The notes under the pieces: generated by a model
Told to the model about the DNA's origin: nothing
The model's input: the letters and a program-made list of their open reading frames with translations, nothing else
Databases searched by the model: none
Position numbers and translations under genes: made by a program
Shown here: positions 5,061-61,737 of the stretch, piece after piece
Numbering within the stretch: the first letter of the stretch is position 1
Layout: each line of letters opens with the position of its first letter
NCBI GenBank assembly: GCA_026929865.2
Contig: CM049410.1
Coordinates: forward strand, 14,936,501 to 15,000,500
Direction: 5' to 3'
From: Hyperoplus lanceolatus
Taxonomy: Eukaryota > Chordata > Actinopteri > Uranoscopiformes > Ammodytidae
Length of the DNA stretch: 64,000 nucleotides

Positions 5061-5088
5061 TCAGCTGTGGAGCAGCTGAACAAAATCC

Positions 5089-5460
5089 TACAGTACTCAA
5101 CTTTACCACAATTATCTCACGTGCTTATATCCCAATGAGAGGAAAATAATATAATGTAGTTACAGATCACTGAGAGATTAAATGCATCAACCAGATTTTC
5201 AACCGTGCACTCAATTGACTGTCCACGTACAAAATCATACTTAATTGTTATATGACTTTAATAAAGATTATCTGATGGATAAACAGGCAGACTTTGTGCT
5301 CCTGTCCTTTTTGTGTATGTAGATTAGAGAATATTAAAAGATTCAGCGCAAAATTGCCTTGGTGCAAATACCACCTAATTCTCAAAGACCAGTGCTTATT
5401 GACACAGCAGTTATACTGGTACAATTTACCACAGCAGAGATGCTTGTACTAAAACACCAC

Positions 5461-5511
<51 letters not shown>

Positions 5512-5609
5512 CATTTTGTCATTTGGCCAACATAAAAATATAAATGAAATGAATGATGAAAATCTATCTGTGTCACATGTTCCCTTTTAAAACCCATAGA
5601 GGGAGGGCT
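5089..5609. other. Intergenic spacer V5-V6
   Basis: No gene. It contains a (CT)n microsatellite at about 5462-5505 and aligns with 49765-50308, which has a (CT)n tract of different length at about 50153-50191. Confidence 0.6.
5462..5505. repeat. (CT)n microsatellite
   Basis: About 22 uninterrupted CT units followed by a T run; the orthologous tract in the second duplication copy (about 50153-50191) is shorter. Confidence 0.9.
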
Positions 5610-5728
5610 ATGCAAACTCTTCCTCTCTTATAAACACACCACCAACAACTTGTGGCAGAACACTGGGACACTTCTAGACATTTCTGAAACACTCAAATCA
5701 GAAAGCACCAAACTACAGTGTGTATTAC

Positions 5729-6183
5729 ATGATGGGAAAAACAATAATCTGGAGTATATTATTTTTAGTTTCTATTCATGGTGAGTAAATCCTTTCTGCT
5801 TTATTTTGTTTGTAAACATCCAATATCCGTGATTTACAAGTTTGTTGGACGATGATCAGAATCTCTTTGTTTGCAGGAGTTTGGAGTGAGATCAAACTGG
5901 AGCAGACTCCTTCTGTGATGAAAAGACCTGGAGAGACAGTGAAGATGTCATGTATAATATCTGGGTTTGACATGACAAGCTACTATATAAGCTGGATACG
6001 ACAGAGGCCAGGGAAAGCTCTGGAGTGGATTGGGCAGATGAACGCTGGTTCAAACTCTGCTAGCTATGCCAGCTCTTTTCAGAATCGTTTCATCATGACT
6101 GAAGATGTGCCCAGCAGCACTCAGTACCTTGAAGTCCAGAGCCTGACAACAGAAGATTCTGCTGTTTACTTCTGTGCTCGAGA
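5729..6183 (+). CDS. ighv: IGHV segment V6 (group F), intact
   Basis: Heavy-chain V segment. Octamer ATGCAAAC 5610-5617, TATAAA 5629-5634. Leader exon 5729-5780 ([18 protein letters not shown]), V exon 5877-6183 after TTTGCAG. Mature start [22 protein letters not shown]1 [10 protein letters not shown], framework 2 [17 protein letters not shown]2 MNAGSNSA, framework 3 with an unusual [18 protein letters not shown], end [10 protein letters not shown] (Phe before Cys). RSS: CACAGTG 6184-6190, 23-bp spacer, ACAAAAACC 6214-6222. Nearly identical to V30. Confidence 0.93.
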
Positions 6184-6517
6184 CACAGTGACTGAAGACA
6201 GTGGAGCAGCTGCACAAAAACCTCCACAGATAACAAACAGCAACGTGATCCTAACAACATCTGGACTTTCTAACACAATCTTGTTTAAAAAGTTGTTTTT
6301 ATACAAGTGTGTCATGTGTGTAACATATTATAATCTCTGAAGATGAACTATGTTATTGTCTATTTATTCAAGAAAACAAACAAACAAACAAAACACATTA
6401 ATTTGACCATATTGGACAGTCAAAGTGCTTTCTGAAACAAGGCCTGGGATGACATTAGACAATAAAAAACTTGTCGTACAAACACACTGAATACATTGCT
6501 GGAGATGATTTGACATA

Positions 6518-8149
6518 CAGTCATATGAAAAAGTTTGGGAACCCCTCTCAGCCGGCATTATAATTGACTCTGCTTTCACAAAAAAAAGATAAAAGTGGTA
6601 TGTCTTTAATTTACCAGGAACAGCTAAGTACTGGGGTGTTTTCCAAACAAAGATTTTTTGAAAAGCAGTATTTGGTTGTATGAAATAAAATAAAATGTGA
6701 ATAACTGGCTGTGCAAAAATATGGGAACCCTTGCGGTCTTGCTGATTTTAATGCCTGTAACAGCATGTAAAACTGATTACTTTAAACACAAAGTTGGTTG
6801 GATTATGTTGTTAAGCCTTGAACCTCATAGAAATGTCTGTTTAATCATGAGAAAAGGTATTTAGGTGCCTAAATGCAAGTTGCACTTCTCTTTGACTCTC
6901 TGCTGAAGTGAGACAGAATGGGATCATCAAAACAGCTCCCGAAAGATCTGAAAAACAAAGATTGTTCATTGTCATGGTTTAGGGGAAGGCTACAAGAAGC
7001 TTTCCCAAAGGTTTCAATTGTCAATTTCGACTGTAGGGAACGTTGTCAGGGAATGGAAGGACACAGGCATAGTGGCAGTTAAACCAAGGCATGGCAGACC
7101 AAGAAAAAAACAGGAGCGGCATAGGTGGAGGATTGTGAGAATGGTTGCACACAATCCACAGATCACCTCCAAAGGCCTGCAAGAACATCTGGCTGCAGAT
7201 TGTGTATCTGTACATCGTTCAACCATTCAGCTCAATTTGCACCAAAACATCTGCTTTTTATAGAGACCAAATAACTTAATTTTTGTCTCATCAGTCCAAA
7301 GCATTTTCTTCCAATATGAATCTGGCTTGTCTAAATGAGCTTTTGCATACTCCATGCAACTGTATCTGTGGCGTGGGCGCAGAAAGGGCTTCCTTCTCAT
7401 CACCCGGCCATACAGATGTTTTGGTGCAAATTGCACTGAATTGTAGAACCATGTACAGATACACAATCTGCAGCCAGATGTTCTTGCAGGTCTTTGGAGG
7501 TGATCTGTGGGTTGTGTGCAACCATTCTCACAATCCGCCGCATATGCCGCTCTTGTACTTTTCTTGGTCTGCTAGACCTGGGTTTAACTGCAACTGTGCC
7601 TGTGTCCTTCCATTCCCTGACAACGTTCCTTACAGTAGAAATTGACAATTCAAACCATTGGGAAAGCTTCTTGTAGCCTTCCGCTAAAGCATGACAATGA
7701 ATAATCTTTGTTTTTAAGATCTTTCGGGAGCTGTTTTGATGATCCCATTCTGTCTCACGTCTGCAGAGAGTCAAAGAGAAGTGGAACTTGCATTTAGGCA
7801 CCTAAAATACCTTTTCTCATGATTAAACAGACCTTTATATGAGGTTCAAGGCTTAACAACATAATCCAACCAATTTTGTGTTTAAAGTCCTCAGTTTTAC
7901 ATGCTGTTACATGCATTAAAATCAGCAAGACCACAAGGGTTCCCATATTTTTGCACAGCCAGTTTTTCACATTTTATTTAATTTCATACAACCAAATACT
8001 GCTTTTCAAAAAATCTTTGTTTGGAAAACATCCCAGTACTTAGCTGTTCCTGGTAAATGAAAGACATACCACTTTTATCTTTTTTGTGTGAAAGCAGAGT
8101 CAATTATAATGCCAGCTGACAGGGGTTCCCAAACTTTTTCATATGATTG
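6518..8149. mobile_element. Foldback derivative of a Tc1-like transposon
   Basis: Ends are CAGTCATATGAAAAAG... and its inverted copy, flanked by TA. The arms (about 6518-7250 and 7425-8149) are inverted copies of the same Tc1 5' half. Each arm encodes the N-terminal helix-turn-helix of Tc1 transposase: 6919-7250 on + and 7801-7430 on -, with KKLSQ-FQLSISTVGNVV and a GRPRK linker. The right arm continues on - (7400-7227) to the first catalytic Asp in MLWTDETKIKLFG; the other two catalytic acids are absent. It is therefore not autonomous. A sister copy is at 51217-52714. Confidence 0.85.
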
Positions 8150-8151
8150 TA

Positions 8152-9197
8152 GATGGTAACTTATGACATTTGAACCTTCACCTTGGTAGATGCTTGAATG
8201 CTTGTTATTAGGGAACAAAAGGGGCTAATAACATGGGACCAGCTGTTATAGAGAGCTCTTCACCTTAGCTATCGTGTGATGATAGTCAACAAATGGGGCC
8301 GCTGATAAACTAATGTGTTTTCCATCCCCTCAAACCCGTCCTTAATGTACTCTCAATTCAGTATTTACAACTTCCAAGTCTAAGAAAATAATAAATATTG
8401 TTTAACCCTCATCCTATCAAGGTATTTTACATACATGGACTACTGACGGGGTCACTAGAGACCCAAGGCAAGAAAACTGAAAGAAACCACCATCAAAGAA
8501 AAATTTGAGAAAAACAACAGTATCATTTCAGGAGAGTTAAAGTTAAATTGCTCAATGCGAACAATGGAATGGAAGTGTTTTAGGCGAATATTAGTGTTTT
8601 AGAGTTACTCTGATGTCTGGAAAGATACACTCAATAAATAGTTATATTTATTAAAATTACCTCAATACATTTGTATTGTTGAAGAGCAGCAAATATAATA
8701 TGATGAGAAACCAATAACATTAAAGGCTGACCATGCAACATTTTCATTAAAACACTAATTATAGAGTCACACAAAAATAATCCGATTCAATTATTACTTC
8801 TGACCCACTAGAATGTGTGGTGGTGTGTTTATCTGCACAAGCCTCAATAGAAATGTTATCATGAACACATTTAAAAGCGAAACTTTCCCAAAATATAACA
8901 TTTTCCGTGGAGAATAAATAAATAAAATATCTGTCCGCCAGGAGAGAAACATGAACGTCAAGTGAAATGTAAGCTGTCCCTAATAGATTGATAGGGAATA
9001 TATATGTAAATAACTCACAAGTCAGTGGCCGTTAAAAAAAACTACTATGTTATGCACTGTGGACCAACGTAGCTATTATACATTTCACTGTGAGACTGGG
9101 TTGGATTAACAATTCCTAGTCATTACAGTTTCACCAGAAATACCGTCACGCAAGCGACATCCAAGTCCAGCTTAATCCTCGATGTGAGGAGGAGTCA
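8152..9197. other. Intergenic spacer before V7
   Basis: No gene or recognised element. Aligns at high identity with 52717-53762 in the second copy of the duplication. Confidence 0.55.
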
Positions 9198-9277
9198 ATG
9201 CAAAACTCTGATGTCTTCCCCCTCTACTTATGTGACTGCAGAGAGGAGGACAGAGAACAGTGGGCACACAGTTTAAC

Positions 9278-9718
9278 ATGATGGACTATAGGACAGGACT
9301 GCTGCTTTTAACTCTCTGCTGGGCAGGTGAAGCTCTTCTCTTTTTCCCCTTTCTTTCATGTTTTTTCAAGTTGTACATTTGTTGCATGTTATGATTTTCT
9401 TTGCTGTCTTGGCAGGTGTTGATGGTCAGACTCTGACACAATCTGAACCAGTGGTAAAAAGACCTGGAGAATCCCACAGATTGACCTGTACAACCTCTGG
9501 ATTGTCATTCAGTAGCTGGTGGATGGCCTGGATCAGACAAGCTCCTGGAAAAGGACTGGAATGGATCGCTACTGACGCTGGTGGCAGCAGCAAATACTAC
9601 TCCCAGTCAGTCCATGGCCGGTTTACCGTCTCCAGAGACAACAGCAAAGAGCAGCTGTATCTGCAGATGAACAGTCTGAAGACTGAAGATTCTGCTGTTT
9701 ATTATTGTGCTCGAGAGC
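9278..9718 (+). CDS. ighv: IGHV segment V7 (group A), intact
   Basis: Heavy-chain V segment. Octamer ATGCAAAA 9198-9205. Leader exon 9278-9326 ([17 protein letters not shown]), V exon 9416-9718. Framework 1 [18 protein letters not shown]1 [13 protein letters not shown]2 [28 protein letters not shown], end [20 protein letters not shown] 9719-9725, 23-bp spacer, ACAAAATCC 9749-9757. Promoter and intron match V31, but from mid framework 1 to the exon end it is essentially the same as V8, which suggests gene conversion. Confidence 0.93.
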
Positions 9719-10785: not shown

Positions 10786-11231
10786 ATGATGGACTATAGG
10801 ACAGGGACAGGACTGCTGCTTTTAACTCTCTGCTGGGCAGGTGAAGAGTTTCACTGATCTTGAGTTGAAGTTGTCTTGAAAAAATGTTACCAACTTATAG
10901 TAGATGACTATTTTTCTTGTTCATACAGGTGTTGATGGTCAGACTCTGACAGAATCTGAACCAGCCAATAAAAGACCTGGAGAATCCCACAGATTGACCT
11001 GTACAACCTCTGGATTGTCATTCAGTAGCTGGTGGATGGCCTGGATCAGACAAGCTCCTGGAAAAGGACTGGAATGGATCGCTACTGACGCTGGTGGCAG
11101 CAGCAAATACTACTCCCAGTCAGTCCATGGCCGGTTTACCGTCTCCAGAGACAACAGCAAAGAGCAGCTGTATCTGCAGATGAACAGTCTGAAGACTGAA
11201 GATTCTGCTGTTTATTATTGTGCTCGAGAGC
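10786..11231 (+). CDS. ighv: IGHV segment V8 (group A), intact exon, aberrant RSS
   Basis: Octamer ATGCAAAA 10706-10713. Leader exon 10786-10840 has a 6-bp tandem gain ([19 protein letters not shown]). V exon 10929-11231: framework 1 [15 protein letters not shown], then a body virtually identical to V7 ([18 protein letters not shown]), end CARE. Heptamer CACAGTG 11232-11238 and nonamer ACAAAATCC 11253-11261 are perfect for the group, but the spacer is only 14 bp (11239-11252): 9 bp are missing relative to V7. By the 12/23 rule this should impair normal rearrangement, so V8 is best called an ORF of doubtful function. Confidence 0.88.
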
Positions 11232-11261
11232 CACAGTGACTGGAGTAGCTGTACAAAATCC
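11232..11261 (+). other. RSS of V8 with 14-bp spacer
   Basis: CACAGTG, 14 bp, ACAAAATCC. All other complete V RSSs in the window have 22 or 23 bp. Length is closer to a 12-RSS than to a 23-RSS. Confidence 0.85.
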
Positions 11262-12192
11262 TACAGTACTTTGGGCTGGAGGAGCACAAGCACATCTTAT
11301 ATACCACTTTGTACCTTCCTTTCTATGAATGAGGCTATCACAATTGCAATACAAATGAAGACAACATAATGTCTGTAAAAGAAGTTGAATCTTATCTGCG
11401 TTATAATATGAGAGTGAAATTGAATGTTCCAGCTTCATTTATAAAAACACTAGAGGGCAGTCAGTGTCACTTTCCTCTCTTGTACTAAAAGGAGAAGCTG
11501 AGATATTTTCTTCTCATTCACTTTAACTGACACTGATGTAGTTCTGTCACAGCTTTTAGTTCCTTCCAGCTGTTTTCCTCTAGAAGCTTCTCTGTGCGTC
11601 TGTGTCTTCAAACATCTGCAGACACTGAAACCATTAAAAGCCTTTATGCAATTCCGCAAACCAGCAGACTAATACTCAAGCTGTCATGTTCCTGGCTGCT
11701 TTCACATCTTCTGTTAAAATAAACAGTAAAGTACAATGAGTCAGGACAAATACATGTCTTTAACTTCCAATATAAATAACCTTTTTTAACATGTTAACAA
11801 TAATGTAAAAACCTGAAATAATCTAAACATTGGAAGCAACTAAACTGTACGAACACATTTTGAATCATTTTATCCATTTGTTCATATGAAAACATGCTAA
11901 ACTCACTGTAAACACGGCTCATGGAAATCATCATTCTTGGTTGTTGCTTTTGTTTACATGGATGTACATCATCATTGTTATTGCAATGCTGATTTGAATA
12001 AATATGCTCTCCATTATTCATGATTCTTTTATATTCAGATTATGAAAATTGAGTTTTGATTTCAATTATATTTAATGTCATTACATTTAGGCTTTAATAG
12101 GCATGTTTTCACTCTGCAGACATGAGAACACTGAACAGACTCTCCTATTGGCTCCAGTTAGACCAACATTGATGCTTCATATGTTTGATTAT
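11262..12192. other. Intergenic spacer V8-V9
   Basis: No gene. Carries the conserved block at about 11500-11700, whose octamer has decayed to ATGCAATT (about 11646). The spacer aligns with 60806-61737. Confidence 0.55.
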
Positions 12193-12286
12193 ATGCAAAC
12201 TCACTGACCTTCCTTGTAACTCGGCTATAAAAACTTCCCGTCAGGCTTTCAGTGGAGTTCACAGCAAGTCACTGCCAACATAAACC

Positions 12287-12606
12287 ATGTTTCCTGTAGC
12301 TACGGTGCTGCTGTTAGCAGCTGGATGTGAGTCTCTCTGGATTGTCAAAGTTTTAGTAAACAGTTCCACTTCGAAGTTTAATTTGAGTTTTTTCTTATCA
12401 TTTTTCCCATTCTTTTAACAGATGTGAAGTGTGAACAGTTGACACAGCCAGCCTCTGTGACTGTGGGGTGGAGGTACCCTTCGTCAAAATAATGCTTTGA
12501 AGAACAAGTTCAGCTACAGCAGAGACACTTCTGCTGCAACAGTGACTATCAAAGGACAGAGTCTGCAGCCTGAGGACACAGCTGTGTATTACTGTGTACG
12601 TCAACC
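12287..12606 (+). pseudogene. ighv: IGHV fusion pseudogene V9 (group B 5' / group C 3')
   Basis: Octamer ATGCAAAC 12193-12200, TATA 12226-12233, leader exon 12287-12326 and the start of the V exon (from 12422, EQLTQPASVTV) are group B and closest to V32. At 12463-12465 (shared GTG) the sequence jumps to group C CDR2 (GGTGGAGGTACCC, as in V23) and continues to a group C end, VYYCVRQP, and group C RSS: CACAGTG 12607-12613, 23 bp, ACAAATATC 12637-12645. Framework 1 end to CDR2 is missing and the frame meets a stop soon after the joint. It sits at the edge of a segmental duplication. Confidence 0.9.
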
Positions 12607-49725: not shown

Positions 49726-49764
49726 CACAGTGACTGGAGTTGGTGGAGCAGCTGTACAAAATCC
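49726..49764 (+). other. Orphan RSS of V29
   Basis: Complete 23-RSS (CACAGTG, 23 bp, ACAAAATCC) preceded only by the duplicated CTCGAGAGC and the hAT end, with no V exon attached. Confidence 0.85.
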
Positions 49765-50150
49765 TTCAGTACTCAACTTTACCACAATTATCTCACGTGC
49801 TTATATCCCAATGAGAGGAAAATAATATAATGTAGTTACAGTTCACTGAGAGATTAAATGCATCTACCAGATTTTCAACCGTGCACTCAATTAACTGTCC
49901 ACGTACAAAATCATACTTAATTGTTATATACAAAATTACTTTAATAAAGATTATCTGATGGATAAACAGGCAGACTTTGTGCTCCTGTCCTATTTGTGTA
50001 TGTAGATTAGAGAATATTAAAAGAGCCCCCTTCCTATGCAAATAAGCCTTGGTGCAAATACCACCTAATTCTCAAAGACCAGTGCTTATTGACACAGCAG
50101 TTATACTGGTGCAATTTACCACAGCAGAGATGCTTGTACTAAAACAACGA

Positions 50151-50195
<45 letters not shown>

Positions 50196-50308
50196 CTTCA
50201 TTTTGTCATTTGGCCAACATAAAAATTCAAATGAAATGAATGATGAAATGAATGATGAAAATCTATCTGTGTCACATGTTCCCTTTTAAAACCCATAGAG
50301 GGAGGGCT
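49765..50308. other. Intergenic spacer V29-V30
   Basis: No gene; (CT)n at about 50153-50191. Paralogue of 5089-5609. Confidence 0.6.
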
Positions 50309-50427
50309 ATGCAAACTCTTCCTCTCTTATAAACACACCACCAACAACTTGTGGCAGAACACTGGGACACTTCTAGACATTTCTGAAACACTCAAATCAG
50401 AAAGCACCAAACTGCAGTGTGTATTAC

Positions 50428-50882
50428 ATGATGGGAAAAACAATAATCTGGAGTTTATTATTTTTAGTTTCTATTCATGGTGAGTAAATCCTTTCTGTTT
50501 TATTTTGTTTGTAAATATCCAATATCCGTGATTTACAAGTTTGTTGGACGGTGATCAGAATCTCTTTGTTTGCAGGAGTTTGGAGTGAGATCAAACTGGA
50601 GCAGACTCCTTCTGTGATGAAAAGACCTGGAGAGACAGTGAAGATGTCATGTACAATATCTGGGTTTGACATGACAAGCTACTATATAAGCTGGATACGA
50701 CAGAGGCCAGGGAACGCTCTGGAGTGGATTGGGCAGATGAACGCTGGTTCAAACTCTGCTAGCTATGCCAGCTCTTTTCAGAACGGTTTCATCATGACTG
50801 AAGATGTGCCCAGCAGCACTCAGTACCTTGAAGTCCAGAGCCTGACAACAGAAGATTCTGCTGTTTACTTCTGTGCTCGAGA
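50428..50882 (+). CDS. ighv: IGHV segment V30 (group F), intact
   Basis: Octamer ATGCAAAC 50309-50316, TATAAA 50328-50333. Leader exon 50428-50479, V exon 50576-50882. Differs from V6 by only a few residues: SCTISGF versus SCIISGF, PGNALEW versus [15 protein letters not shown] versus SFQNRFIM. End [20 protein letters not shown] 50883-50889, 23-bp spacer, ACAAAAACC 50913-50921. The Arg to Gly change at the start of framework 3 removes a usually conserved basic residue. Confidence 0.93.
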
Positions 50883-51216
50883 CACAGTGACTGAAGACAG
50901 TGGAGCAGCTGCACAAAAACCTCCACAGATAACAAACAGCAACGTGATCCTAACAACATCTGGACTTTCTAACACAATCTTGTTTAAAAAGTTGTTTTTA
51001 TACAAGTGTGTCATGTGTGTAATATATTATAATCTCTGAAGATGAACTATGTTATTGTCTATGTATTCAAGAAAACAAACAAACAAACAAAACACATTAA
51101 TTTGACCATATTGGACAGTCAACTTGCTTTCTGAAACAAGGCCTGGGATGACATTAGACAATAAAAAACTTGTCGTACAAACACACTGAATACATTGCTG
51201 GAGATGATTTGACATA

Positions 51217-52714
51217 CAGTCATATGAAAAAGTTTGGGAACCCCTCTCAGCCGGCATTATAATTGACTCTGCTTTCACAAAAAAAAGATAAAAGTGGTAT
51301 GTCTTTAATTTACCAGGAACAGCTAAGTACTGGGGTGTTTTCCAAACAAAGATTTTTTGAAAAGCAGTATTTGGTTGTATGAAATAAAATAAAATGTGAA
51401 TAACTGGCTGTGCAAAAATATGGGAACCCTTGCGGTCTTGCTGATTTTAATGCCTGTAACAGCATGTAAAACTGATTACTTTAAACACAAAGTTGGTTGG
51501 ATTATGTTGTTAAGCCTTGAACCTCATAGAAATGTCTGTTTAATCATGAGAAAAGGTATTTAGGTGCCTAAATGCAAGTTGCACTTCTCTTTGACTCTCT
51601 GCTGAAGTGAGACAGAATGGGATCATCAAAACAGCTCCCGAAAGATCTGAAAAACAAAGATTGTTCATTGTCATGGTTTAGGGAAGGCTACAAGAAGCTT
51701 TCCCAAAGGTTTCAATTGTCAATTTCGACTGTAGGGAACGTTGTCAGGAAATGGAAGGACACAGGCATAGTGGCAGTTAAACCAAGGCATGGCAGACCAA
51801 GAAAAAAACAGGAGCGGCATAGGTGGAGGATTGTGAGAATGGTTGCACACAATCCACAGATCACCTCCAAAGGCCTGCAAGAACATCTGGCTGCAGATTG
51901 TGTATCTGTACATCGTTCAACCATTCAGCTCAATTTGCACCAAAACATCTGCTTTTTATAGAGACCAAATAACTTAATTTTTGTCTCATCAGTCCAAAGC
52001 ATTTTCTTCCAATATGAATCTGGCTTGTCTAAATGAGCTTTTGCATACTCCATGCAACTGTATCTGTGGCGTGGGCGCAGAAAGGGCTTCCTTCTCATCA
52101 CCCGGCCATACAGATGTTTTGGTGCAAATTGCACTGAATTGTAGAACCATGTACAGATACACAATCTGCAGCCAGATGTTCTTGCAGGTCTTTGGAGGTG
52201 ATCTGTGGGTTGTGTGCAACCATTCTCACAATCCGCCGCATATGCCGCTCTTGTACTTTTCTTGGTCTGCTAGACCTGGGTTTAACTGCAACTGTGCCTG
52301 TGTCCTTCCATTCCCTGACAACGTTCCTTACAGTAGAAATTGACAATTCAAACTTTTGGGAAAGCTTCTTGTAGCCTTCCGCTAAAGCATGACAATGAAT
52401 AATCTTTGTTTTTAAGATCTTTCGGGAGCTGTTTTGATGATCCCATTCTGTCTCACGTCTGCAGAGAGTCAAAGAGAAGTGCAACTTGCATTTAGGCACC
52501 TAAAATACCTTTTCTCATGATTAAACAGACCTTTATATGAGGTTCAAGGCTTAACAACATAATCCAACCAATTTTGTGTTTAAAGTCCTCAGTTTTACAT
52601 GCTGTTACATGCATTAAAATCAGCAAGACCACAAGGGTTCCCATATTTTTGCACAGCCAGTTTTTCACATTTTATTTAATTTCATACAACCAAATACTGC
52701 TTTTCATATGATTG
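51217..52714. mobile_element. Foldback Tc1-like element, copy 2, right end shortened
   Basis: Duplicate of 6518-8149 carried by the segmental duplication. About 133 bp are missing near the right end, between two copies of TTTTCA, leaving the last bases CATATGATTG and TA. Transposase N-terminal fragments remain on + (51617-51961, slightly longer open frame than in copy 1) and - (52499-52098, 52164-51925). Confidence 0.85.
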
Positions 52715-52716
52715 TA

Positions 52717-53762
52717 GATGGTAACTTATGACATTTGAACCTTCACCTTGGTAGATGCTTGAATGCTTGTTATTAGGGAACAGAAGGGGCTAATAACATG
52801 GGACCAGCTGTTATAGAGAGCTCTTCACCTTAGCTATCGTGTGATGATAGTCAACAAATGGGGCCGCTGATAAACTAATGTGTTTTCCATCCCCTCAAAC
52901 CCGTCCTTAATGTACTCTCAATTCAGTATTTACAACTTCCAAGTCTAAGAAAATAATAAATATTGTTTAACCCTCATCCTATCAAGGTATTTTACATACA
53001 TGGACTACTGACGGGGTCACTAGAGACCCAAGGCAAGAAAACTGAAAGAAACCACCATCAAAGAAAAATTTGAGAAAAACAACAGTATCATTTCAGGAGA
53101 GTTAAAGTTAAATTGCTCAATGCGAACAATGGAATGGAAGTGTTTTAGGCCAATATTAGTGTTTTAAAGTTACTCTGATGTCTGGAAAGATACACTCAAT
53201 AAATAGATATATTTATTAAAATTACCTCAATACATTTGTATTGTTGAAGAGCAGCAAATATAATATGATGAGAAACCAATAACATTAAAGGCTGACCATG
53301 CAACATTTTCATTAAAAAACCAATTGTAGAGTCACACAAAAATAATCCGATTCAATTATCACTTCTGACCCACTAAAATGTGTGGTGGTGTGCTTATCTG
53401 CACAAGCCTCAATAGAAATGTTATCATGAACACATTTAAAAGCGAAACTTTCCCAAAATATTACATTTTCCGTGGAGAATAAATAAATAAAATATCTGTC
53501 CGCCAGGAGAGAAACTTGAACGTCAAGTGAAATGTAAGCTGTCCCTAATAAATTGATAGGGAATATAAATGTAAATAACTCACAAGTCAGTGGCCGTTAA
53601 AAAAAACTACTATGTTATGCACTGTGGACCAACGTAGCTATTATACATTTCACTGTGAGACTGGGTTGGATTAACAATTCCTAGTCATTAAAGTTTCACC
53701 AGAAATACCGTCACGCAAGCGACATCCAAGTCCAGCTTAATCCTCCATGTGAGGAGGAGTCA
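52717..53762. other. Intergenic spacer before V31
   Basis: No gene; paralogue of 8152-9197. Confidence 0.55.
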
Positions 53763-54142
53763 ATGCAAAACTCTGATGTCTTCCTCCTCTACTTATGTGA
53801 CTGCAGAGAGGAGGACAGAGAACAGTGGACACACAGTTTAACATGATGGACTATAGGACAGGACTGCTGCTTTTAACTCTCTGCTGGGCAGGTGAAGCTC
53901 TTCACTTTTTCCCCTTTCTTTCATGTTTTTTCAAGTTGTACATTTGTTGCATGTTATGATTTTCTTTGCTGTCTTGGCAGGTGTTGATGGTCAGACTCTG
54001 ACACAATCTGAACCAGTGGTAAAAAGACCTGGAGAATCCCACAGATTGACCTGTACAACCTCTGGATTCACATTCAGTAGCTACTGGATGCACTGGATCA
54101 AACAGGCTCCTGGAAAAGGACTGGAGTGGGTCGCTGCTATGT

Positions 54143-55282
54143 CAACCCTTTCTCATCAAAATTACGTTCCCAGAGGACTATTCGGCATTCTCAATTACGT
54201 TTGACCATTTACGTATTTTGTCCGTGATTACGTTTTTATGAACATATTCGGCATTCTCAATTACGTTTGACTGAAAAACGTATTTTGTCCGAAATTACGT
54301 TTTTATGAACATATCGCAAACAAGTTCGTTCTCAGCCTAGAGCTGTTCAGGATGCTCAATTACGTTTGGCTACAAAACGTATTGATTACGTTTTAATAAA
54401 CATATCGCATACATTCGTTCTCAGCCTATTTTTTGCCATTTATTTACCTCTAGGCTTATGTTTGGTTGAAGTGTGCATTGTCTGGTCGGCTGCCTGAACT
54501 ACAGCGCTGCAGGAAATTAATATGTTCCATAGATATGTTCACATGTTTCTTCATTCATTCATTCATTCATTCAAACAAACTGGTGAAGGCAATCAACGTT
54601 CCGACATGGCCACGCCCCCTTTGGGTGGAAAACAAAGCGATTTTGACTATAATGCAAAATTGCGGTCCAAAACAGCACAAAAAGAAAACGATCAGAGATA
54701 AATAAGTTAAAATTTAACCGACAGACACAATGTTAAGATCCTTTACAACAACTCTGCCAGCTAGATAACGTTAAATGATTAATTTGATCAATCTAAAACT
54801 ATGTGTGTCTAGTCTCTCAGCATCAATCTGGCGCAATGATCCGACCCATTGGCCAGAGATATCATGCCCTGATGTATATATTCACCTCACTGAGTCTCTA
54901 TGTAAGCTGATTACACGTGAACTAATTGTTCGTTACGATAGCAAACTCCCACTGAATGCAGAGCGCAGCCGGGAGCCTCCTGCTGTCATACAGCCCTTCT
55001 TTAGGGGAATTTTTGGGGGCATGGCAAAGGAATAAAACCATGATGTTTGTTTTTTACTTTGTAAACCACAAAACAGCTCAGGACATTGCAGATTTGAGCT
55101 ATAACGCTTATTTTGAATGATCGCGCTGTCTTTGAGTACTGCCACGAGAGTTCTGTCTAGATGACGTATTGCCGACCTGAGGAAGGGTGACGTCAGACGC
55201 ACGCCCCTCTACAAACCAATCAATGTCGAGGAATGTCACGTGACGCGAAACGAGCCTATAGCGGCAGCCCTGAGCTACGAAG
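54143..55282 (+). repeat. Left inverted-repeat arm of the V31 transposon
   Basis: Two blocks, 54143-54776 and 55181-55282, pair with the right arm. The about 400-bp stretch between them is absent from the right arm. It holds a short + frame 54775-55035 with a WPEISCPDVYIHL stretch that faintly resembles the WP-I-PDIYNYL motif of fish transposon-linked proteins; this is a weak hint only. Confidence 0.75.
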
Positions 55283-56686
55283 AGCATAAATCGTTGTGAG
55301 ATGATCATTGTTGTTTGTGAGAAATGCAACACAATCGTCACTCAGTAAATGTGCACGATGTAGTTTGATGGTTATCACGAATAAGGAGTTGTAGGCGGCC
55401 TTTACAGTTAAATAAGCAGGACAACTACAACCATAATCCCACTTTGCTTGTCTTTTTACCTCTGTATAACCTTGTGGATTAAATTACTTCTATTTTCTTC
55501 AGTATTTTACATTAAATGATCTTTGAAGTAAGATATCATTCACAACTTTTTTATATATATATATCTCACCTGCACAATATGTTGCCTTTTAAAAAATGTT
55601 TTATATTTTATATTTCTGTGGCCAATGTTCTTTGTTGTTTTTATTGTGCAAATAAATTAAATCTAATCAAAAGCATGGTGGTGAATTGTAGGTGTGTTTA
55701 AATGTAAAATTGTACAATCTTCACACTCTCAACATTAGCACCTTTCCAGCAATGTATTCAGTTGGTGTTCTTTACCGCAAGGTTGATTTTATGATCAATT
55801 TGAAGGCCCAATATGGAAAATTAAGCTTTTTGTTTGCTCATTTGTTTTCTTGTGGAAATAGTAAACCAAAAGGTGTGTCCTTCAGAGATTATAATACAGA
55901 ACCCATATGCATAGGCGTTGTTTAAATATACCTGCATGGATGGATGGACTTATAGATGGATAATGTACTTTATTTATTGCCATAGGGAAAGTGTGGCATT
56001 GTAGTAGCAGTTATTGTGGATTGTATCAGGAATGACTTTCTGTAGTGGTCAAATAGCTGAAGGTGATGCTGTCCATCATCTTCAGCAGCTTGTGCATTAT
56101 CATTCTCTCCACAACCAACTGGGCTTAGTAACAGGTTGATAAGGATTTGCTCATGAAGTAGAGTCTGCGCTGTCCCTTCATGCAGTCTGTTGTTTAATTA
56201 AATGCCCAGGTTTCTGTAGCCCTCCATCAACTCAACCTCTTCTCCCAGAATGGAGATTTAGCCTAGTCCTCCTGGTCCTCCCAAAATCCATATCCATCTC
56301 TCAACCTTGGTTAAATTTAAGAGGTGTGTAGCTCCTACCATGCCCGAACACTACTGTCCACCTGTTCCCTGTCCCTGTAAACTGTCCTGTGAACTGCACA
56401 CAGAACTGACACACCTTGCATCTGCTGAATCATCTGAATATTTATTTAAAATAGGCCCATGTGAAAGTGACAGGTGCTAATTGAGGGATGTGAAATACAA
56501 AGGCAGTTTGAACAAAATAGGCTAGAGTCATTGGAAAAACTGTTATAGAGGGATCTTAACCTTGCAGATTAAATCAGGGCGCTGTCAAGGCTTCCTCGCC
56601 CAATGCTACACCACAGGTCCAGCGCGATACATACGTGGAATGTCGCTGCCCGTATGAAAAGAACAAGAATAAATCTCTTATCAATA
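55283..56686. other. Interior of the V31 transposon, left
   Basis: No intact gene. A region of about 55930-56400 read on - resembles a badly decayed LINE reverse-transcriptase tail (GEEVELMEGYRNLG), with low confidence. Confidence 0.4.
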
Positions 56687-57024
56687 CAGGTGAAACTCGA
56701 AAAATTAGAATATCGTGCAAAAGTTCATTTATTTCAGTAATTCAACCTAAATGGTGAAACTAATTTATTATATAGACTCATTACATTCAAAGTGAGATAT
56801 TTCAAGCCTTTATTTGTTATAATTGTGATTATTATGGCTTACAGCTTATGAAAACCCCAAATTCTAAATCTCAGAAAATTTGAATATTACATAAAATCAA
56901 TAAAAAAAGGATTTTAAATACAAAAATGTCGGCCCTCTATAAAGTATAATCATGCATATGTACTAAGTACTTGGTTTGGGCCCCCTTTGCACAAATTATT
57001 GCCTAAATGCGGTGTGGCATGGAT

Positions 57025-57109
57025 GTAAGTAAGTAAGTAAGTAAGTAAGCTTTTATTTATATAGCGCCCTTCACAGACCAGGGTCACAAGGCGCTTCACA
57101 ATGCGCTTC
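57025..57109. repeat. (GTAA)n and short repeat in the nested Tc1
   Basis: Six GTAA units followed by CTTTTATTTATATAGCGCCC and a GGGTCACAAGGCGCTTCACA stretch, a sequence common at the tails of fish short interspersed repeats. Confidence 0.55.
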
Positions 57110-58021
57110 CAAAGGATGCTATCTGTCTGTGGCACTGCTGAGGTGTTATGGAAGCCCAGGTTGCTTTGATAGTGGCCTTCAGCTCCTCTGTATTGTTGGG
57201 TCTGGTGTGTATCATCTTCCTCTTGACAATAGTCCATAGTTTCTCTATTGGGTTCAGGTCAGGAGAGTTGTCTGGCCAATCAACACAGTAATACCATGGT
57301 CAGTCAACCAGTTACTTGTGGTTTTGGCACTGTGGACAGGTGTCAAGTCTTGCTGGAAAAAGTAATTCAGCATCTCCATAAAGCTTGTCAACAGACAGAA
57401 GCATGAAGTGCTCTAAAATCTCCTGGTAGACAGCTGGTGGTGACTTTGGACTTGATAACACAGTGGACCAACACCATCAGATGACATGGTGCCTCAAATC
57501 ATCACTGACTGTTGAAACTTGACAGTGGTCTTCAAGCCCCTTGGATGTTGTGCCCCTCCACTCTTCCTCTAGACTGTGGAACCTTGATTTCCAAATGAAA
57601 CGCAACATTTAATTTGGATCAGTGATGATTTGAGGTATCATGTCATCCGCTGCTGTTGGTCCACTGTGTTATCAAGTCCAAAGTCACCACAGCCATCTAC
57701 CAGAAGATTTTGGAGCACTTCATGCTTCTGTCTGTTGACAAGCTTTATGGAGATGACAATTTCCATTTCCAGCTAGACTTGGCACCTGCCCACGGTACCA
57801 TAAACCACTGGTAACTGGTTGACTGACCATGGTATTACTCTGCATGAATTGCCAGACAACTCTCCTGACCTGAACTCCATAGAGAAACTATGGACTATTG
57901 TCAAGAGGAAGATGATACACACCAGACCCAACGATACAGAGGAGCTGAAGGCCACATCAAAGCAACCCAGGGGCTTCCATAGCACCTCAGCAGTGCCACA
58001 GACTGATAGCATCCATGCCAC

Positions 58022-58180
58022 GCCGCTTTTTTTTTTCTTTTTTTTTTTTTAACCTTTATTTAACCAGGAAAGTTCCATTGAGATTTAAAACCTCTTTTTC
58101 AAGGGAGTCCTGGCCAAGAGACAGCAACAAGTTACATGTTCACTCACAATAATACACTCACAACATATAGAGGCAATATT
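58022..58180. repeat. T-rich interspersed repeat in the nested Tc1
   Basis: T run followed by AACCTTTATTTAACCAGGAA and a TTTTTCAAGGGAGTCCTGGC stretch, breaking the Tc1 right arm; a dispersed repeat copy by style. Confidence 0.55.
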
Positions 58181-58490
58181 TAGGCAATAATTCATGCAAA
58201 AGGGGCCCAAACCAAGTACTTAGTACATATGCATGATTATACTTTCTAGAGGGCCGACAGTTCTGTATTTAAAATCCTTTTTTTATTGATTTTATGTAAT
58301 ATTCTAATTTTCTGAGATTTAGAATTTGGGGTTTTTATAAACTGTAAGCCATAATAATCACAATTATAAAAAATAAAGGCTTCACATATCTCACTTTGTA
58401 TGTAATGAGTCTGTATAAGATATTATTTTCACCTATAAAGTTGAATTACTGAAATAAATGAACTTTTGCACGATATTCAAATTTCACCTG

Positions 58491-58875
58491 TATATCATGC
58501 CAAGTGTGTGGTGGACAAACCGCCCAAGACCACTTACCATTAAGACAGGGGACAATATACTGAGTCAACTGCATATGCAGAAAATAATAAACACTGCCAC
58601 ACCACACCGCAAACACTGATTAAGCACTGTTCATAAGACTGCCTAAAATTCTACCTTTTTAAGGTCAAAATCATGAATAAAGCAATCTTTAAACTACTCC
58701 CATTTGAGTAACTGGCCTACTCCTTCCAAATACTTTCAGTTGCAGGATTCACATTCAATATGCACCTAGTTTTATATTATGTGTAGGCTATGCACAATTT
58801 ATAGCAACATTTAATATCATTAACTAAAAGAAAACAACCAAATCCCTGTCAGGGTAGGCTACAAGATGTGACACA

Positions 58876-58920
<45 letters not shown>

Positions 58921-59886
58921 GCATTGTAGAGTACTGCTTTAGTAAGTTCAAGAAGCCTATTCAATGAAATTTTAAACTGTACATTTAATTGTTTTATAAT
59001 TTCATGTATAATCCGCCACATATTTGATCAGAAACTTTAAATTATACAACCACAAAGGCTATAAAACACATTTTTCTTACAGAAATAGTTTCCCTAGCCT
59101 ACATGCTTTAAGGTTTAGGGTAGGCCTATAAAGAATGTGTTCAATTCAAGTTATTTTATTAATTTTTTGGTAGTGCAGCATGTTTCTGTAAGTGGTTCCA
59201 TTATTCCTAAGGGCCCTTATGATGTTTCTGTGTGGAAACGGGGACGTTTCGGAGGAGGGGAATAATGTAACCTACTTCCTGTTAAGTTTTTTTTATTATG
59301 ATGGAGCAGAACGGAAGTGTCAGCCGTGTGAACATGTCTGACTTGTGGTTTTACGGCGGAGGCCCTGAATTGTAAATGGAATGCGCCCTGAATCGGCAGA
59401 CACTCTGATAGGAGTCGAACGGGTCCACCCAGCCCTAAAAAGGATGATGGGAAATGTAGGATTACATAGCAACGGTGGTAAATACGTCAGCAAACTAACC
59501 AAATAGAGATCAGATACTCCCAATTACCGAATATAATGATATTCTGATGTATTTCTCGCTAGATATGTTTTCAAAACATATGTTTATGCACTTACTAGCT
59601 GAAGTGTGACGTATTTGTGTCACCATGATAACCCTTGACTTCAAAAATTTGCTCTGGGAAAAAAAACTCGGCGGCGGGTGGAGGGAGGGAGGGAGCGCTC
59701 TTGTCAGCTGTGTGTGTGTGTGCTATCTTTGATTGTGTCCAGTTGATCAACAGCTTGGCACGTAGCCTATTTGTGTACCGAACATTTCTTGAGAATTAGC
59801 CTATCAGACTTCAGACAGATCATATGAATTCGCAATATCAAGATTATGAAAATAAAGTACATAGGTCTCGCTAGAAATCTTTTTAG
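58491..59886. other. Interior of the V31 transposon, right
   Basis: No gene recognised. Contains a (ACGC)n(AC)n microsatellite at about 58870-58921 and a GC-rich GGCGGCGGGTGGAGGGAGGG stretch near 59670. Confidence 0.5.
58870..58921. repeat. (ACGC)n/(AC)n microsatellite
   Basis: Several CACG units followed by about 14 AC units. Confidence 0.9.
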
Positions 59887-60618
59887 CTCAGGGCTGCCGA
59901 TAGGCTCGTTTAGCATTCCTCGATACTGATTGGTTTGTAGAGGGGCGTGCGTCTGACGTCACCCTATTTTCCCTGCAGCCCTGTGTAGTTCCGTAGTCTA
60001 GTTTAACGTTATCTAGCTGGCAGAGTAGTTGTAAAGGATCTTAACATTGTGTCTGTCGGTCAAATTGTAACTTATTTACCTCTGATCGTTTTCTTTTTGT
60101 GCTGTTTTGGACCGCAATTTTTTGCATTATAGTCAAAATCGCTTTGTTTTCCACCCAAAGGGGGCGTGGCCATGTCGGAACGTCGATTTCCTGTTTGAAT
60201 GAATGAATGAAGAAACATGTGAACATATCTATGGAACATATTAATTTCCTGCAGCGCTGTAGTTCAGGCAGCCGCCCAGACAATGCACACTTCAACCAAA
60301 CATAATCCTAGAGGTAAATAAATGGCAAAAAATAGGCTGAGAACGAATGTATGCGATATGTTTATTAAAACGTAATCAATACGTTTTGTAGCCAAACGTA
60401 ATTGAGCATCCTGAACAGCTCTAGGCTGAGAACGAACTTGTTTGCGATATGTTCATAAAAACGTAATTTCGGACAAAATACGTTTTTCAGTCAAACGTAA
60501 TTGAGAATGCCGAATATGTTCATAAAAACGTAATCACGGACAAAATACGTAAATGGTCAAACGTAATTGAGAATGCCGAATAGTCCTCTGGGAACGTAAT
60601 TTTGATGAGAAAGGGTTG
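59887..60618 (-). repeat. Right inverted-repeat arm of the V31 transposon
   Basis: Reverse complement of the two left blocks, here contiguous, ending in GATGAGAAAGGGTTG. Confidence 0.85.
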
Positions 60619-60805
60619 GCTATGTACAACAGTGGTAGCATCTACTACTCTCAGTCAGTCCAAGGCCGGTTTACCATCTCCAGAGACAACAGCAAAGAGC
60701 AGCTGTATCTGCAGATGAACAGTCTGAAGACTGAAGATTCTGCTGTTTATTATTGTGCTCGAGAGCCACAGTGACTGGAGACGGTGGAGCAGCTGTACAA
60801 AATCC

Positions 60806-61737
60806 TACAGTACTTTGGGCTGGAGGAGCACAAGCACATCATATATACCACTTTGTACCTTCCTTCCTATGAATGAGGCTATCACAATTGCAATACAAAT
60901 GAAGACAACATAATGTCTGTTAAAGAAGTTGAATCTTATCTGCGTTATAATATGAGAGTGAAATTGAATGTTCCAGTTTCATTTATAAAAACACTAGAGG
61001 GCAGTCAGTGTCACTTTCCTCTCTTGTACTAAAAGGAGAACCTGAGATCTTTTCTTCTCATTCACTTTAACTGACACTGATGTAGTTCTGTCACAGCTTT
61101 TAGTTCCTTCCAGCTGTTTTCCTCTAGAAGCCTCTCTGTACGTCTGTGTCTTCAAACATCTGCAGGCACTGAAACCATTAAAAGTTGTTTATGCAAATCC
61201 GCAAACCAGCAGACCAATACTCAAGTTGTCATGTTCCTGGCTGCTTTCACATCTTCTGTTAAAATAAACAGTAAAGTACAATGAGTCAGGACAAATACAT
61301 GTCTTTAACATCCAATATAAATAACCTTTTTTAACATGTTAACAATAATGTAAAAACCTGAAGGAATCTAAACATTGGAAGCAACGAAACTGTACGAACA
61401 CATTTTGAATCATTTTATCCATTTGTTCATTTGAAAACATGCTAAACTCACTGTAAACACGGCTCATGGAAATCATCATTCTTGGTTATTGCTTTTGTTT
61501 ACATGGATGTATATCATCATTGTTATTGCAATGCTAATTTGAATAAATATGCTCTCCATTATTCATGATTCTTTTATATTCAGATTATGAAAATTGAGTT
61601 TTGATTTCAATTATATTTAATGTCATTACATTTAGGCTTTAATAGGCATGTTTTCACTCTGCAGACATGAGAACCCTGAACAGACTCTCCTATTGGCTCC
61701 AGTTAGACCAACATTGATGCTTCATATGTTTGATTAT
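60806..61737. other. Intergenic spacer V31-V32
   Basis: No gene; conserved block with octamer ATGCAAAT 61191-61198. Paralogue of the V8-V9 spacer. Confidence 0.6.

Follow-up and report, generated by a model that had tools for sequence, protein, structure and literature searches.

A probable non-autonomous foldback-type DNA transposon with long inverted arms in an immunoglobulin V exon

An insertion in an immunoglobulin V gene

We analysed a 64,000-nucleotide stretch of contig CM049410.1 (hereafter the window), in which one of several immunoglobulin variable (V) exons is interrupted by a 6,476-bp element at 54143-60618. The insertion point lies in the complementarity-determining region 2 (CDR2) of an otherwise intact exon. 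Judged from its V exon, leader and recombination signal features, the locus would be part of an immunoglobulin heavy-chain V cluster; the host, judged also from Tc1 sequences of fish type, is probably a fish. The host gene and the element borders are laid out as follows:

53843..53891, plus strand: leader exon of the host V gene, 16 residues plus one base, as read from the sequence
53981..54142, plus strand: first part of the V exon, through the left target site duplication (TSD) copy; aligns with other V exons of the window
54136..54142, plus strand: left TSD, GCTATGT
60619..60625, plus strand: right TSD, GCTATGT
60626..60766, plus strand: second part of the V exon, in frame with the first part when joined
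60767..60805, plus strand: CACAGTG, a 23-bp spacer and ACAAAATCC, which we take, by the familiar motif rule, to be the recombination signal sequence (RSS)

The element starts with CAACCCTTTCTCATC and ends with its exact complement, GATGAGAAAGGGTTG, and its first and last 20 bases form a perfect inverted repeat. GCTATGT stands immediately outside both ends. When the junction was tested for a duplication of k = 2-12 bases, k = 7 was the sole match; by simple arithmetic, a 7-base match at fixed positions has a chance of 1 in 16,384. The exact 15-bp end occurs in the window at the two element ends only. Allowing up to 3 mismatches gave five matches (shuffle mean, 2.26; at least 5 in 8 of 100 shuffles), of which the three non-terminal ones carry 3 mismatches apiece and stand at chance level. 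No second copy of the element was found elsewhere in the window, where the arms had no BLAST match at E 1e-3.

Taking out the element together with one TSD copy restored the V frame. The joined exon encodes an uninterrupted V domain including YYCARE, with the leader exon before it and the RSS after it, and its joined flanks (80 bases from each side, one TSD copy) aligned over the full 160 bp with eight of the window's other V exons, and over part of it with more. Element-free counterparts were found for each flank: over 1,435 bp the left matches 8136-9570 at 97.98% identity, and the right, from 60637, matches 11102-12465 at 96.87% over 1,374 aligned columns. As the best-matching paralogues of the two flanks come from different V units, the age of the insertion is bounded only loosely from above by flank divergence. 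The window also holds a recent segmental duplication of the V cluster, with about 98% identity between 5067-8008 and 49743-52706 and between 8136-9573 and 52701-54138, which supplies the element-free comparison site for the left flank.

The abundance of segmental and inverted duplications at this locus, with a second palindrome at 6516-8151, would favour an assembly error or a local inverted duplication in place of an insertion. This alternative is hardly credible given the base-exact TSD, the exact ends, the in-frame element-free V paralogues and the lack of BLAST matches to the arms elsewhere in the window. A simple inverted duplication was rejected on the exact TSD and ends.

Inverted arms and the site array

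The element is bounded by two long inverted arms:

54143..54432, plus strand: outer left arm, a tandem array with ATTACGTT at 54161, 54194, 54227, 54260, 54294, 54359 and 54385
54433..55283, plus strand: inner left arm; identity to the right arm drops inward
about 54776..55156, plus strand: left-only block of about 380 bp; borders approximate, with the word CTAGATRACGT near both
59878..60328, minus strand: inner right arm, which pairs with the inner left arm but lacks the left-only block
60329..60618, minus strand: outer right arm, the same in sequence as the outer left arm, with seven ATTACGTT and ten ACGT cores

The right arm (59878-60618) is 741 bp long and the left arm, which runs to about 55283, is about 1,141 bp long, the difference being due to the left-only block. 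This block may be an insertion in the left arm or a deletion from the right arm; as a nested transposon it was rejected, having neither inverted ends nor a duplication visible at its borders. An original prediction for this DNA, made from the letters and their reading frames, had described a long-inverted-repeat DNA transposon of unclear superfamily in a V exon, and the analysis supports it. The exact ends and 7-bp GCTATGT duplication that it gave are right to the base, its 6.48-kb total agrees with the 6,476 bp measured, its arms of about 730 bp come close to the 741 bp of the right arm, its sub-repeats are present within the arms as ATTACGTTT, and its roughly 400 bp of left-arm sequence missing from the right corresponds to the left-only block.

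The outer 312 bp of the arms contain no mismatch. The next 111 bp contain two (54455 and 54486), and the following 210 left-arm positions contain eight, together with two indels of 18 and 2 bases, a region in which BLAST opens three gaps. Identity falls to 83% in the innermost 100 arm columns, with 5 mismatches and gaps for the remainder. At a uniform inner rate (8 in 210), 312 clean positions would have a probability of 5e-6. The contrast implies that homogenisation or copying is more recent in the outer arms than in the inner ones, or that selection has kept the outer arms; conversion or recent copying would account for the arm identity.

Each outer 290 bp holds ATTACGTT seven times in one orientation, at offsets of +19, +52, +85, +118, +152, +217 and +243. 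The spacings are 33, 33, 33, 34, 65 and 26, and the unit types alternate. ACGT cores number 10 per outer 290 bp, against 85 in the 57,524 bp outside the element, where no 290-bp interval exceeds 3. For CpG, the observed/expected ratio of the outer left arm is 1.99; that of the window is 0.35 and that of an element nested in the interior 0.22. By base-by-base autocorrelation, lag 66 lies above all 1,000 shuffles. By analogy with Galileo, a P element of Drosophila, the ATTACGTT sites are putative transposase binding sites: in the Galileo terminal inverted repeat (TIR), PMC3688188 describes one footprinted THAP site at +63 to +80 and two more in the tandem repeats.

Several further features of the inner arms were noted. 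A frame beginning ATGGCCACGCCC occurs in both (60071-60173, minus strand; 54606-54706, plus strand). The right-arm frame continues into GGTAAATAAG, which may be a splice donor; the left arm has GATAAATAAG there. The stretch from ATGGCCACG to GGTAAATAAG (60173-60071, minus strand) could be a first exon. Neither the right nor the left frame protein matched a Pfam family, and the frame may be a relic first exon or chance. Common to both arms, at 55184-55235 and 59914-59965, are TGACGTCA and a CCAAT-like word with a promoter-like look. The GC fraction of 55158-55283 is 0.55.

Interior and nested element

Between the arms lie three segments, for which no strand is assigned:

55284..56686: left interior; open reading frames (ORFs) of at least 45 aa without a Pfam match above cut-off
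56687..58490: Tc1-like palindrome nested in the element and flanked by TA, with a DDE_3 relic on either side, the two inverted relative to each other
58491..59877: right interior, with an (AC)n tract; ORFs of at least 45 aa without a Pfam match above cut-off

All 53 stop-to-stop ORFs of at least 45 aa in the element were compared with Pfam at curated cut-offs. The only matches were the two DDE_3 relics (E 9.5e-07 and 1.4e-08), both within the nested element; transposase domains of the THAP, P, KDZ or Mutator-like (MULE) types were found in none of the 53. This copy therefore looks non-autonomous, as no transposase match was found apart from the nested relics. No Rfam family reached its gathering score in 53700-61000.

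The nested Tc1-like element, which makes up 1.8 kb of the interior and was not mentioned in the original prediction, consists of two inverted 3′ halves, and both of its arms carry the transposase end SPDLN.IEKLW. It is interrupted by repeats that look to us like short interspersed nuclear elements (SINEs). A decayed, CpG-poor element within identical, CpG-rich arms points to transposition of the whole composite. Elsewhere in the interior, about 100 bp (55796-55896) are 72-75% identical, in inverted orientation, to 6326-6427 and 51012-51126, and are probably an old dispersed repeat.

A transposon probably moved in trans

A clean insertion, its TSD, element-free V exons in the same window and arms that are much richer in CpG than the interior are direct observations. 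They are very probably explained by a non-autonomous, foldback-type cut-and-paste DNA transposon that was moved in trans with 7-bp staggered cuts. Transposons of this kind are known, and the element would be a further member of the kind. In the mechanism we propose, the transposase would come from another genomic locus, recognise the CAACCCTTTCTCATC ends and the ATTACGTT arrays of both outer arms, pair the two ends and cut out the entire 6.5-kb unit together with its nested Tc1-like palindrome. Reinsertion with 7-bp staggered cuts would then leave GCTATGT at both sides. The composite would thus have moved as a unit, and an active partner enzyme would exist or have existed. The insertion is probably young.

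Superfamily placement

Tc1/mariner and piggyBac, the latter of which duplicates TTAA, were rejected: the element is flanked by GCTATGT rather than TA or TTAA, and TA flanks occur only at the nested element. For the remaining candidates, published families are compared as they appear in excerpts of the cited papers.

A Galileo-like P element fits best among the superfamilies and is placed first, without the element being filed as a P member. In this placement, which we hold tentatively and at somewhat less than even chances, the element would belong to the Galileo type of the P superfamily, with a THAP-domain transposase acting in trans and long, internally repeated TIRs. P elements of this sort leave TSDs of 7 or 8 bp, and 7 bp were found here; the arms of 741 and about 1,141 bp, with a 66-bp array and four ATTACGTT spacings of 33-34 bp, likewise agree. 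The original prediction had not considered the P superfamily, although Galileo combines 7-bp TSDs with long repeated TIRs. Galileo TSDs are 7 bp, with 8 bp in three D. willistoni copies (PMC4168063), and its TIRs of 0.5-1.2 kb contain tandem repeats, some with extra THAP binding sites, and take in internal sequence and nested elements (PMC4168063, PMC3688188). Galileo thus resembles the element in its TSD, its long TIRs with tandem repeats and its nested elements, and has many non-autonomous copies; the element differs in having no transposase found in it, in a target other than GTANTAC and in a host that is probably a fish and not a fly. THAP or P transposase was not found in any of the 53 ORFs of at least 45 aa, as expected of a non-autonomous copy.

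P elements are on record in fish. Zebrafish P-like elements are described as mobile (PMC10983969), and a review reports from medaka the non-autonomous P element Izanagi, with another element inside (PMC7599744). The zebrafish element Pdre2 has a 13-bp TIR, CATACCTGTCAAC, 12-bp subterminal repeats and an 8-bp TSD, and in assays zebrafish THAP9 excised it without transposing it (PMC10983969). Like Pdre2, a fish element, ours has CA..TG ends and a TSD of similar length; unlike Pdre2, whose 13-bp TIR and 8-bp TSD are given in that excerpt with no description of long arms, it has long arms.

Membership of KDZ (Kyakuja-Dileera-Zisupton) is unlikely. Fungal Kyakuja elements share the 7-bp TSD and CA..TG ends (PMC12730594), Cryptococcus KDZ elements have TIRs of 139-241 bp and TSDs of 4-8 bp (PMC12810828), and Zisupton is listed for ray-finned fishes (PMC7599744). 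The two Kyakuja families described are, however, fungal and have no TIRs, and Zisupton has an 8-bp TSD (PMC12730594). A KDZ domain was found in none of the 53 ORFs, although a non-autonomous KDZ copy would still fit.

The architecture also recalls MULE foldback elements. MULE TIRs typically exceed 100 bp, subterminal tandem repeats occur in 10 of 12 Aedes aegypti families with long TIRs, Muta1 is termed a type-2 foldback element, and non-autonomous MULE copies have varied interiors (PMC5225508, PMC3169594). The element is like Muta1 and Tm1 in its composite TIRs, subterminal tandem repeats and variable interior; those elements, however, have 8-10 bp TSDs and repeat units of 12-15 bp, compared with 33/66 here. 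A MULE would leave a TSD of 8-10 bp (PMC5225508, PMC3169594), whereas k = 8, 9 and 10 do not match at the element, and no MULE domain was found in the 53 ORFs. We keep this assignment as a rival in spite of the TSD length but regard it as distinctly improbable; another or a new superfamily is equally improbable.

Membership of hAT is very doubtful. We judged it by an 8-bp TSD, with 5, 6 or 7 bp in special lineages; an 8-bp duplication does not match at the element, and a 7-bp hAT7 is known from rust fungi (PMC12730594). Dada was rejected on the long TIRs of the element and its V exon target. Dada is found in fish and its 6-7 bp TSD takes in the 7 bp seen here, but its targets are mostly small nuclear RNA (snRNA) and transfer RNA (tRNA) genes, and Dada-U6 and Dada-U1 are given as having no TIRs in the excerpt (PMC3706591). 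The V exon target alone would not exclude Dada, because one copy of Dada has been recorded outside RNA genes.

Sequence and literature searches

The 19-base sub-repeat had one match among viral contigs, 26 bases exact, in a 270-aa ORF of a phage-like contig (L001). As there was no wider similarity, we judged the match to be fortuitous, although 26 bases are more than would usually match by chance. The 15-mer end was absent from the literature text in either orientation; 13 papers contained one of two shorter strings, and none of them, from their listing, looked related to transposons. No description of the element was found among the titles and abstracts listed on Galileo, TSD lengths, P, foldback, KDZ in fish or V-gene insertions. 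PMC10045372, PMC8277862, PMC10990002 and PMC7776569 gave no reason to alter the interpretation.

Weighing the interpretation

Several points weigh against our reading or its Galileo-like placement. The ends, TSD length and mobility are read from one insertion, a single copy being seen. The insertion site is barely palindromic (4 of 15 positions, of which the centre cannot match; one site only), GCTATGT is unlike the Galileo consensus GTANTAC, and the ends share with Pdre2 nothing beyond CA. Binding at ATTACGTT is argued by analogy, and outside the arms the window has 3 further copies of the word. Autocorrelation at lag 33 lies below the shuffle maximum; since it supports a 66-bp period and not 33, the 33-bp spacing depends on the ATTACGTT word alone. 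The piecewise ORF scan could overlook a badly decayed or finely split transposase, and in-place conversion between the arms would give the same picture of CpG content and identity as transposition of the composite. Terminal and inner-arm patterns had no match in viral contigs or in bacterial and archaeal genomes, which counts for little as these collections contain no fish genomes. Finally, Repbase or Dfam may already include the family.

Beyond the foldback transposon itself, we put forward, more speculatively than the P placement, a vertebrate foldback lineage that would be either a Galileo-like P branch or an undescribed superfamily with 7-bp TSDs. Its CpG-rich ATTACGTT arrays, spaced by about 33 bp or some three helical turns, might form a multi-site docking platform in both arms, and it would have moved recently into an otherwise intact V segment. 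Were the element of P type, the foldback architecture of Drosophila Galileo would also occur in fish P elements, and the CpG-rich arrays would offer a ready test of the idea that repeated TIR sites supply transposase specificity, as proposed for Galileo (PMC3688188). Should a repeat library already include the family, the result is ordinary annotation. The locus is also a clear example of transposon inactivation of a V segment, and clean excision would be expected to restore that segment.

Other palindromes in the window

The second palindrome (6516-8151) has 739-column arms that are 93.8% identical and a 159-bp loop. Its ORFs resemble the N-terminal, helix-turn-helix half of a Tc1 transposase, and its structure suggests two Tc1 5′ halves joined as an inverted dimer. 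A related copy is present at about 51215-52706.

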